This document shows, in pieces, positions 6,620 to 33,944 of a stretch of DNA of 64,000 bases. Below the pieces are notes generated by a model that saw nothing but the letters and a program-made list of their open reading frames with translations, ran no database searches and was not told the origin of the DNA. The first letter of the stretch is position 1; each line of letters starts with the position of its first letter. This DNA is from Sphingorhabdus sp. (GTDB taxonomy: Bacteria > Pseudomonadota > Alphaproteobacteria > Sphingomonadales > Sphingomonadaceae). The stretch spans positions 1-64,000 of the forward strand of contig JANQNO010000010.1 of NCBI GenBank assembly GCA_028279555.1. The letters run 5' to 3'. The position numbers were made by a program, and so were the translations under genes.

Positions 6620-6752
6620 CCATCAGGATAAGGCACAGATGGGGGCATGTAGGAAAGGTGTTTTTTGATTCCCGGACATTCGTCAATCCCGGTTGGTGTG
6701 ATTTGAGCGGTGAGTTTCTTGGTTGAGCACCGTTCGCCGATCAAGGCACTCC

Positions 6753-6916
6753 CGTCACACCCGAGTAGGCGGGTGTGACGATGTTTTCGCCTGGCCCTGC
6801 AGTCCAAATTCTACGTCGCCCCAGCGACGGCTGGGGCCTATCCCGCGTCTCAGCTGTGAACCGAACCCTTCGTTCTTGACTTCTGGTCTGGGATAGACAC
6901 CCGCCTGCGCGGGTGT
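6753..6916. repeat. Composite palindromic repeat in a gene-free gap
   Basis: The 401-base gap 6620-7020 has no gene but several palindromes. An 11-bp hairpin arm CGTCACACCCG (6753-6763) pairs with 6770-6780, GCCCCAGC (6818-6825) pairs with 6830-6837, and ACACCCGC (6897-6904) pairs with 6909-6916. The first and third hairpins share the CACACCCG/CGGGTGTGACG sequence in opposite orientation, so they look like ends of one element. Translated on the minus strand the right end gives PAQAG, the well-known false peptide of dispersed bacterial repeats. Confidence 0.7.
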
Positions 6917-6963
6917 GACGGTTTCCGGTGTCGCCACACAGTCAAAGCCCGCCACTACCTCAG

Positions 6964-12446: not shown

Positions 12447-12619
12447 CGTCATTCCGGACGTTACGGCAGCAGAAATCTGTGATTTCGCTGCTGCTGTTAG
12501 AGCCGGAATCCAGTCAACTTTCCAGCCAAAAAGGAAGGCTGACTGGATTCCCGCCTGCCCTGCAGGCAGTTTATCCTGAGCGGCTGCCGCAGGCATGCAG
12601 CCGAAGGGCGGGAATGACG
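12447..12619. repeat. MITE-like palindromic element between two GST genes
   Basis: The 173-base element is bounded by perfect 9-bp inverted ends, CGTCATTCC (12447-12455) and GGAATGACG (12611-12619). Inside is a second perfect inverted pair, GGAATCCAGTCA (12505-12516) with 12540-12551. The terminal sequence and the ATCCAG/CTGGAT internal motif match the element inside sufC (32466-32535), so both belong to one family. It carries no gene of its own. Confidence 0.8.
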
Positions 12620-31943: not shown

Positions 31944-32287
31944 TGGATATCGCGACCATTGCATTGCCTTTCCATCGATATGCTGATGGAAGTCCTGTAT
32001 TCATTGAGACTCCAAACGGATTTGCAGCGGACTTCGGCAAGAAAACTCCAGCAGGCGACCGGGAAAGACAGCGTTACTTCAACTCTTGGCTCCAAAAATT
32101 GGGTGAGCAACTGGGATCAAATCGTATTCCGGTGTTTATCGAATGGGTAACTGGAGAGGTGACAAGAGTGGACAAAGGCTGTGTAGGGCATGCTCTTGCT
32201 GCTGGGCTGATACAAGAGGTGGTTATCGGGCAGGATCGCACCGTAACGCACGTCATATTGAAAGAAACCAATGCTCCAGATAAATAA
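31943..32287 (+). CDS. Unknown protein inserted between sufB and sufC
   Basis: A 114-residue protein starting MDIATIALPFHRYADGSPVFIETPNGFAADF, with a central WLQKLGEQLGSNRIPVFIEWVTGEVTRVDKG and a VTHVILKETNAPDK end. I recognise no domain. Its base composition looks more AT-rich than the flanking suf genes. It overlaps the sufB stop by one base and the sufC start by 17 bases, so it is fully embedded in the operon. Foreign origin or a lineage-specific Suf accessory are both possible. Confidence 0.6.
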
Positions 32288-33098
32288 CCTCCACACCACC
32301 GTAGCCGACAAACCAATCCTCAAGGGGCTGTCGCTCGCCATCAATGCAGGCGAAGTGCATGCGATTATGGGGCCTAACGGCGCGGGCAAGTCAACGCTCG
32401 CATATGCGCTGGGCGGGCGCGATGGTTATGACGTGACCGAGGGTAGTGCGGCTTTCACACCCCCACGTCACTCCCGCGAAGGCGGGAGTCCAGAAGAGGG
32501 AACGGAACTGGATTCCCGCCTGCGCGGGAATGACGAAGAAATAGATTTGCTTCAGTTGGACCCACACGAACGCGCCGCCGCCGGCCTGTTCCTGGGCTTT
32601 CAATATCCAGTCGAGATTCCCGGTGTATCCAACATCCAGTTCCTGCGCGAAGCCGCCAATGCACAGCGCGAAGCGCGCGGCGAGGAGGCCTTGTCAGGCG
32701 GCGAGTTCCTGAAGCTCGCACGCGAAAAGGCCGGGCTGCTAAAAATGGATATGGAGATGCTCAAGCGGCCGGTGAATGTCGGTTTTTCCGGCGGCGAGAA
32801 AAAGCGCAACGAGATGGTGCAGATGGGCATACTGGACCCGCGCCTCGCCATCCTCGACGAGACCGACAGCGGCCTCGATATCGATGCGCTGCGCGTCGTC
32901 GGCGATGGCATCAACAAGATCATGCGCGCGCCCGACAAGGCGGTGCTGCTCATCACCCATTATCAGCGCCTCCTGGAATATGTGCAGCCCGATTATGTGC
33001 ATATTCTTGCAGATGGCCGCATCGTGCGCACCGGCGGGCCGGAGCTTGCCAAGCAGCTCGAAGCCGAAGGCTATGACGCGATCATGGAGGCGGCGTGA
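32271..33098 (+). CDS. sufC: Fe-S cluster assembly ATPase SufC with an in-frame repeat insertion
   Basis: A 275-residue ABC ATPase, about 25 residues longer than usual. Walker A GPNGAGKST is at 34-42, Q-loop Q111 is in GFQYPVEIPGVSN, signature SGGEKKRNE is at 173-181, and Walker B LAILDETDSGLD is near 193-204. Residues about 63-90 (TPPRHSREGGSPEEG then TELDSRLRGNDEE) replace the short loop normally found before DLLQLDPHERA, and they are encoded by a palindromic repeat. All catalytic motifs remain. The insertion lies in the loop between Walker A and the Q-loop, so the protein may still fold. Starts at the ATG overlapping the unknown upstream gene. Confidence 0.93.
   Translation: MLQINNLHTTVADKPILKGLSLAINAGEVHAIMGPNGAGKSTLAYALGGRDGYDVTEGSAAFTPPRHSREGGSPEEGTELDSRLRGNDEEIDLLQLDPHERAAAGLFLGFQYPVEIPGVSNIQFLREAANAQREARGEEALSGGEFLKLAREKAGLLKMDMEMLKRPVNVGFSGGEKKRNEMVQMGILDPRLAILDETDSGLDIDALRVVGDGINKIMRAPDKAVLLITHYQRLLEYVQPDYVHILADGRIVRTGGPELAKQLEAEGYDAIMEAA
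32466..32535. repeat. 70-bp palindromic element inside the sufC coding sequence
   Basis: Inverted ends of 28 bp with three mismatches enclose a 14-base centre. The left end starts CGTCACTCCCGCGAAGGCGG and the right end finishes CGCGGGAATGACG. The ends match the element at 12447-12619. It is read through in frame as part of SufC, resembling the way Rickettsia palindromic elements sit in proteins. Confidence 0.9.
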
Positions 33099-33124: not shown

Positions 33125-33198
33125 CCGTCAGCCCTGAGCCTGTCGAAGGGCGTTTCTCGAGATGGACAGGCGGGCTTCGACAAGCTCAGCCCTAACGG
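33125..33198. repeat. Inverted repeat pair just before sufD
   Basis: CCGTCAGCCCTGAGCCTGTC at 33125 onwards and, inverted, CCGTTAGGGCTGAGCTTGTC ending at 33198, make an imperfect palindrome of about 74 bases around a short centre. It fills most of the 108-base sufC-sufD gap and ends only eight bases before the sufD ATG, so it overlaps the expected ribosome-binding site, where only a weak GGTG is seen. Confidence 0.8.
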
Positions 33199-33206
33199 TG
33201 TCTACT

Positions 33207-33944
33207 ATGGCTAGCCCCCTCCCCACACGCCGCCCAACGCACAAAGACGAGGCCTGGCGCTATGCCGATCTGAACGCGCTCGAGGCGCTGTGGCCGCTGC
33301 CCGCGCCGGAGGCGATTATGGTGCCTGCTGGTGGCGGCCTGAAGCGCGCCATCGTGCCCGAAGGCGGCGTGACGCAAATCGAATTGACGCTGGGCAAGGG
33401 CGCGCAGGCTTCGCTCCATGTGCTCAATAGCGCGGGCGATTATGGCCGGGTCGAACTTGACGTGAAGCTGCATGAGGCGGCCGACTTTACGCTCGATGCC
33501 GTGCAACTTGCCAGCGAAAGCCAGTCGATGGAAATCGTGACCACCGTCCGCCATCTGGAACCGGGTGCCACCAGCCGCCAGACCATCCGCAATATCGCTT
33601 CGGCCAAGGGTAGCGTCACCTATCTGGGGCAGGTCGCCGTCGCGGAAGGCGCGCAGAAGACCGACAGCGAGCAGGATGTGAAATCGATGCTGCTCGATCG
33701 CACCGCTACCGCCAATGCGAAGCCCGAGCTCGAAATTTTCGCAGACGATGTGCAATGCGCGCATGGCGCGACGGTGGGCGAGCTTGATGCGGGTGCGCTG
33801 TTCTATCTGGCATCGCGCGGCCTGCCGCCGGCGCGCGCCAAGCAGCTGATGCTGCAGGCCTTTGTCGCCGGTGTGTTCGACGAGGCCGAGGAAGCGGAGA
33901 AGCTCGCCGAAGCCGCGCTCTCCAAGCTGGGAGAGATGGTGTGA
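33207..33944 (+). CDS. sufD: Fe-S cluster assembly protein SufD (short form)
   Basis: A 245-residue protein that keeps the SufB/SufD beta-helix core: HLEPGATSRQTIRNIASAKGSVTYLGQVAVAEGAQKTDSEQDVKSMLLDRTATANAKPELEIFADDVQCAHGATVGELD, then LFYLASRGLPPARAKQLMLQAFV. The N-terminal helical part of longer SufD proteins is reduced, as I recall for other sphingomonads. The start at 33207 is chosen by the conserved RRPTHKDEAWRYADL opening. The earlier frame to 33162 translates the adjacent repeat. Confidence 0.92.
   Translation: MASPLPTRRPTHKDEAWRYADLNALEALWPLPAPEAIMVPAGGGLKRAIVPEGGVTQIELTLGKGAQASLHVLNSAGDYGRVELDVKLHEAADFTLDAVQLASESQSMEIVTTVRHLEPGATSRQTIRNIASAKGSVTYLGQVAVAEGAQKTDSEQDVKSMLLDRTATANAKPELEIFADDVQCAHGATVGELDAGALFYLASRGLPPARAKQLMLQAFVAGVFDEAEEAEKLAEAALSKLGEMV

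Follow-up and report, generated by a model that had tools for sequence, protein, structure and literature searches.

The CGTC-1 group of REPs, to which RPE-6 and dRS3 belong, is characterized in the part of Di Nocera et al. (2013; PMC3733652) cited here by a CGTC tag, a stem of 8 bp, a loop of four bases and a CCA tail; its members form head-to-head dimers and have no transposase of their own. In S. alaskensis and E. litoralis, according to this account, REPs occur inside genes such as truB and those of tRNA synthetases; SufC is not mentioned there, and recB of two Xanthomonas is the only case described of insertion at approximately one site. For the Rickettsia palindromic elements RPE-4, RPE-6 and RPE-7, the part of Matsutani et al. 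(2013; PMC3767692) cited here describes different repeat types at the same, solvent-exposed site of orthologous genes, isoleucyl-tRNA synthetase included, and leaves undecided whether such a site is a hotspot or reflects a common origin. Finally, MITEs can be fused in frame to genes as short inverted-repeat elements (PMC10969869, in the part cited).

The element described here lies within sufC of a Sphingorhabdus sp., in a window of 64,000 nucleotides (the whole stretch of DNA that was analyzed). It resembles the CGTC-1 REPs in all the traits listed above, and since these include RPE-6, the likeness to Rickettsia palindromic elements drawn in the original prediction is borne out; both sit in frame at surface positions of conserved proteins, translation being inferred in the case of SufC. 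Two differences from the known systems stand out. Whereas every Rickettsia ortholog examined in the cited part of Matsutani et al. (2013) carries an insert, SufC inserts of unrelated families coexist with sister sequences that have none, and unlike the MITEs (PMC10969869) the sufC insert shows no visible target duplication and no parent transposon was found. The free-living sphingomonad setting, by contrast, is not the novelty it had been taken for, given the earlier reports from S. alaskensis and E. litoralis (PMC3733652). REPs in genes, in sphingomonads too, their link to RPEs and the use of about one site by different repeats are thus already known. Among the papers listed in the literature searches, which covered main texts outside subscription journals, we recognized none on REPs in SufC, and one turn used by many families beside bare sisters was not found either. 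As far as these searches show, what is new is the scale, namely one turn of a core protein occupied by unrelated families in many lineages, with bare sisters.

The palindrome in sufC and its host protein

The original prediction of a palindrome lying in frame inside sufC proved correct (Table 1): the element measures 70 bp, 25 of the 28 pairs of its inverted arms match, leaving the three predicted mismatches, and the sufC reading frame runs through it. Both units carry the CGTC tag (CGTC at 32466, GACG ending at 32535) and a stem of 8 bp closed by a four-base loop, ACTCCCGC-GAAG-GCGGGAGT in the left unit and, on the other strand, ATTCCCGC-GCAG-GCGGGAAT in the right one. Each is followed by an unpaired CCAG, where a short tail, mostly CCA, is expected according to the cited account of CGTC-1 REPs. 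At the start of the stem, where that account gives complementary A and T in nearly all cases for the first two positions, the right unit reads AT and the left unit AC. As RNA, positions 32457–32545 fold with −52 kcal/mol (z = −8.28), and none of 200 shuffles folded as well.

Table 1. Positions of sufC, its insert and related elements, in the window or, where a locus (L) is named, in that locus (genome:contig in brackets).
Feature	Position	Strand	Basis
sufC, Fe-S cluster assembly ATPase, 275 aa, in-frame insert	32271..33098	+	ORF list; TIGR01978; single SufC in genome
Segment replacing the 3-residue turn, codons 63-91 (TPPRHSREGGSPEEGTELDSRLRGNDEEI)	32457..32543	+	HMMER alignment vs E. coli SufC
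CGTC-1 type REP, head-to-head dimer	32466..32535	.	genome copies, arm pairing, RNA fold, anatomy in cited account (PMC3733652)
Left arm: CGTC tag, 8-bp stem, GAAG loop, CCA tail	32466..32493	+	sequence and arm length
Right arm: inverted unit with GCAG loop	32508..32535	-	sequence and arm length
Longer, interrupted element between genes, ends CGTCATTCC / GGGAATGACG	12447..12619	.	sequence and ORF list
TruB, long in-frame insert framed by CTCTCCCCTTCAGGGGAGAG-type arms (family E type)	L197:15406-16518 (G000:C4)		
IleS, in-frame CGTC-1 dimer	L009:406-3072 (G000:C7)		
Lhr-type helicase, in-frame CGTC-1 dimer after GAGKT motif, SufC's reading frame	L015:3-1805 (G000:C6)	-	
Smr-domain protein, similar element before Smr domain	L010:1075-1656 (G000:C2)	-	

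With 26 match rows at E <= 0.01 in its own 2.75-Mb genome, corresponding to about 21 distinct places after both-strand and overlapping rows were merged by hand, the element is a dispersed repeat. The copy closest to it matches at 84% identity along its full length (E 1.3e-15), and the copies comprise dimers and single units, head-to-head dimers being expected to predominate in the CGTC-1 group as described in the cited account. The Y1 transposase profile PF01797, positive in 5 of 14 control genomes, has no match in this genome. The intergenic repeat that had been assigned to the same family agrees with the element in its ends, and its position between genes stands, as no ORF of at least 30 aa on both sides spans it; however, it is longer, interrupted and absent from the element's genome matches. 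A 464-kb genome sample (the window plus 400 kb) held 32 inverted repeats, 14 of them overlapping an ORF; among these 14, arms of at least 24 occur only in the sufC element, and only those in SufC and TruB look REP-like by eye. Two further palindromes lie in the window. One of the GTCGAAGG type (D) occupies the sufC–sufD junction at 33128–33200; the longest sufD frame (ATG 33162) begins inside it, so that the real start may be a later ATG near 33207. The other, at 6752–6921 (CCGTCACACCCG...), has arms of 25 with 23 matching and no long ORF spanning it.

The protein exceeds the cut-off of the TIGR01978 sufC profile (324.8 against 212.8 bits). Its alignment to E. coli SufC covers the regions on both sides of the insert throughout and is interrupted between residues 62 and 92, opposite residues 62 and 66 of E. 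coli; 29 residues (63–91) replace three (63–65), and the net gain of 26 agrees with the predicted addition of about 25. Walker A, Q-loop, signature and Walker B are intact by sequence reading, as had been claimed. An AlphaFold2 model (35 sequences, pTM 0.83) has the SufC fold, with 2d3w, 2zu0 and 5awf as best PDB matches; strands 53–62 and 91–92 flank the insert, which is modeled as a low-confidence loop (block means 70, 55 and 61). From the model and general knowledge we take the site to be the tip of the beta subdomain of ABC ATPases. The genome encodes one SufC (a single match at E <= 1e-15) and has no NifU_N/IscU match above cut-off, the one weak match reaching 20.4 bits against 22. On these grounds SufC is presumably essential in this organism and, as far as genome content indicates, evidently works with its insert, in line with the suggestion that the element can enter a protein without loss of function.

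Inserts at the same turn across the Sphingomonadaceae

Among 45 genomes of the genus, SufC was found in 41 and its loop was readable in 40. Most of these (29/40) have a bare turn of three residues, mostly NGE or NGQ, so that repeat-free relatives lack the residues of the insert; ten, one of them (G026) read partly, carry a long insert at the same point, representing six palindrome types, and in G023 the turn is extended by five residues. One genus member (G064, 95% complete) yielded a TruB match and neither SufC nor IleS, for which assembly gaps or divergent genes are possible reasons. The family was sampled with 397 evenly drawn genomes, using an inserted query and requiring end-to-end alignment over at least 756 bases or as far as the contig reached. 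Alignment at inserted length was obtained in 36. Reading all of these revealed 35 long inserts and, in G232, no more than a small expansion. A further genome (G206) aligned across the region at insert-free length. Conversely, a bare query gave a match split in two for 21 of 213 family members; all 15 split-match genomes that were read are inserted. In the order outside the family, no confirmed insert occurred among 79 genomes with a match (83 searched). Two-match rows came from G037, G460 and G495, and that of G037 reflects a partial second copy at a contig end.

The insertion is therefore not unique, and with ten carriers in the genus and 35 in the family sample a single accident in one species can be ruled out. 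The same holds for an assembly artifact, given the many independent assemblies, among them the complete chromosome NZ_CP104207 (L112). Cultured strains are among the carriers, such as Sphingopyxis panaciterrulae DSM 27163 (L109) and Sphingobium subterraneum DSM 102255 (L143). The contigs G026:C61 and G428:C244, both from drafts, have their start within the sufC insert, meaning that a repeat of this kind can break a core gene in a draft assembly.

Altogether 155 SufC sequences were read, 136 of them non-redundant and 51 of these inserted, a number that gives no rate, as the set was chosen for and enriched in inserts (L152 is inserted as well, outside the 51). In all 51, a segment of 27 to 45 residues replaces the turn. 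Loop length is bimodal, with 33 or 57 to 75 residues and three sequences in between. By motif, nine groups can be distinguished (D 14, C 7, H 6, E 5, A 4, B 4, F 3, J 3, C2 3), besides two decayed inserts, a grouping that is partly circular because the motifs were written from the same inserts, and A, C and C2 or H and J may be mutual variants; L113 and L114 look decayed and L115 shortened. Inserted sequences are interspersed with bare sisters across the family. When inverted repeats with arms of at least 17 were sought in the 155 loci (845 kb), 39 fell in the sufC loop, and the only two at other positions of sufC were a run of N and a chance repeat. This arm threshold is reached by 34 of the 51 inserts and missed by 17. 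Within these suf loci no REP-like repeat was found elsewhere in sufC or inside sufB: of 14 repeats binned as sufB, the REP-like ones (10 checked) lie outside the SufB frame, and the other four are two runs of N and two apparently chance repeats.

The four families tested (A, B, C and D) all have copies outside SufC in genomes that carry them in SufC. In whole-genome counts of match rows, which include both strands and the sufC copy, type B gives 14 rows in its carrier G031, 42 in G360 and 6 in G121. Type C gives 7 in G014 (four places), 4 in G035 (two places, just one besides sufC), 4 in G386 and 67 in G215, and in the bare G063 it gives 2 rows at one place. For type D there are 15 and 21 rows in the carriers G011 and G036, 44 in G268, 58 in G156 and 41 in G000, and the whole-genome search of G013, the bare sister of G011 and G036, returned none. 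These copies bear on the idea, raised for Rickettsia in the cited part of Matsutani et al. (2013), that all palindromes at a site diverged in place from one inserted sequence. The shared site and the mutual resemblance of A, C and C2, and likewise of H and J, would fit such a common origin. Nevertheless, A, B and D show no relationship in sequence and each recurs at other places in the genomes of its carriers, and palindromes of types D, E and F are also intergenic in G000; we consider this explanation very unlikely.

All 51 inserts have a length that is a multiple of three and contain no stop. Openness alone is a weak test, as 56% of the five other frames are open too, but in 44 of the 51 the frame in use has a lower hydrophobicity than the other open frames have on average (0.23 against 0.31), and in 31 it is the least hydrophobic of all. 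In six pairs sharing the same insert, pN was 0.092 and pS 0.306, a pN/pS of 0.30 compared with 0.08 in the gene core; these pairs are not independent (G386 enters twice), and a palindrome may distort such counts. By these measures the inserts evolve as weakly constrained coding sequence and, as far as the sequences tell, are presumably translated. Hairpins mark bypassed segments elsewhere, the mitochondrial byps. It is nonetheless barely conceivable that the segment is missing from the protein, by bypassing or splicing, or is an assembly error: against absence stand 51 of 51 open and in-frame inserts, the choice of frame and a pN/pS below 1, and the number of independent assemblies speaks against error.

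History of the inserts

On a tree of SufB and SufC only (130 leaves; six of the 136 were omitted for short SufB), at least 30 changes of insert presence and 46 of insert type are required. Collapsing weak nodes leaves 21 (support 0.9) or 15 (0.95) changes of presence and 37 to 42 of type. Presence is somewhat less scattered than random labels, for which 200 shuffles gave a mean of 39.8 changes and a minimum of 32.

The residues that frame the inserts differ from those of bare turns. The second place after the strand is P in 37 of 51 inserted sequences and G in 79 of 82 bare ones, and a large hydrophobic residue precedes DLL in 50/51 as opposed to 1/82. Most often the strand is followed by T and P in turn, and DLL is preceded by I, L or V; W before DLL occurs in nine inserts from five motif groups. 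Since these residues are not borne by the REPs, simple independent insertion is insufficient, and either descent from a long-loop allele or convergent selection is needed. All nine inserted sequences of the Sphingopyxis group have V two residues before F, where the 11 bare ones have A in nine cases and V in two. In 13 pairs of inserted and bare sisters, synonymous divergence in the 20 codons adjacent to the insert is 1.86-fold that of the remaining gene, against a median of 1.40 (5–95% range 1.21–1.60) in 200 draws of matched bare pairs; for amino acids the factor is 8.9, against a matched bare median of 4.2 (3.1–6.2). Inserted pairs of different type have no synonymous excess near the insert (1.37). 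The flank divergence fits short-tract exchange combined with altered constraint. Together with the framing residues it points to two likely layers, a turnover of REPs in a tolerant loop and a movement of long-loop and bare alleles between species.

Could a single old insertion (F-T-P ... I-D-L-L) have spread through the family by recombination, with only the palindrome core being swapped later? The framing residues common to inserts, the W frame with its five motif groups, the excess in the flanks of insert/bare pairs and the Sphingopyxis residue that tracks insert status all agree with this history. On the other hand, G031 retains NG before DLL, as if its insert had entered beside the old turn, and different-type pairs lack the synonymous excess. 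G014 and G035 carry the same type, C, with insert and core diverged about equally, so that a recent transfer of the insert between them is unsupported. We therefore regard a single origin as possible, though rather doubtful; it overlaps the explanation preferred below, except that it does not allow the bare turn to be entered repeatedly.

Alternatively, whatever agent moves REPs might favor a DNA feature of this spot in SufC. The position is identical in all 51 inserts and bare sites mostly encode N-G or D-G, then Q or E, as such a target preference would predict. However, unrelated families would all need the same preference and the bare-site sequence varies. In addition, the closest pair (G014/G063), where the insert replaces nine bases of the bare site, shows no target duplication by eye, although later change could have erased one. 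This alternative appears improbable to us.

Several unrelated families at the same position, in open frames that evolve as coding sequence and with bare sisters in between, suggest instead that repeats keep being built into one tolerant spot. In the explanation that we consider probable, an exposed and permissive turn is repeatedly colonized and reloaded by REPs, alleles are swapped by short-tract recombination, and frame and hydrophilicity act as a filter. REPs would arrive occasionally, and most arrivals in genes would be lost. At the SufC turn, which would be a recurrent REP site in the Sphingomonadaceae, the two strands probably hold together whatever hangs between them, so that inserts pass if their length is a multiple of three and they are open and hydrophilic. 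The long loop may then take up new REPs, lose old ones and decay, and insert and bare alleles would probably also be exchanged between species via short recombination tracts. In the Sphingorhabdus protein, a CGTC-1 dimer of a resident family would thus occupy the turn and be translated as a flexible loop of 29 residues.

REPs in other genes and meaning of the SufC site

Cases of REPs in genes are few genome-wide. Of 22 loci examined for the family of the sufC element, five lie in four supported genes (SufC, IleS, a Smr protein and an Lhr-type helicase); the remaining open frames were judged spurious by eye. The family A copies in the three genes other than sufC all read RHxRxxGxP...DxRxRGxD, as in SufC. 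Of 30 TruB loci in the genus 28 were read: nine sequences have clear REPs at one loop, belonging to three types, and another four appear decayed by eye. At this loop the congeners of G000 differ from it in REP type or lack a REP. Likewise, the IleS insertion point holds type A in G000, a CCCTCTCCC palindrome in G011 and G036 and nothing in G012 and G013, though these five of 30 loci give no rate.

An insert might also be kept for a selected function, its mRNA hairpin or extra loop tuning SufC or the suf operon. The hairpin is strong, inserts recur across many lineages and their peptides are somewhat constrained. Nevertheless, inserts of different types encode unrelated peptides, 29 of 40 congeners manage with the bare turn, decayed inserts are retained and similar inserts occur in TruB and IleS, all of which makes a selected function unlikely. 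A tentative wider reading, which we put forward with less confidence than repeated colonization itself, is that the turns of SufC, TruB and IleS are standing docking sites for REPs, at which a class of long-loop alleles circulates among Sphingomonadaceae by short recombination tracts and is reloaded time after time with each host's unrelated palindromes.

As sufC offers 51 carriers, unrelated families and sisters with the bare turn, the Rickettsia question of hotspot versus diverged single insertion becomes testable here, and the SufC data favor the recurrent use of one site. The inserted loops range from near-perfect palindromes to decayed ones, and this natural gradation within an Fe-S ATPase offers a gauge of how much a core protein tolerates. 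If the docking-site reading is true, mobile palindromes would be a shared and renewable source of protein loops.
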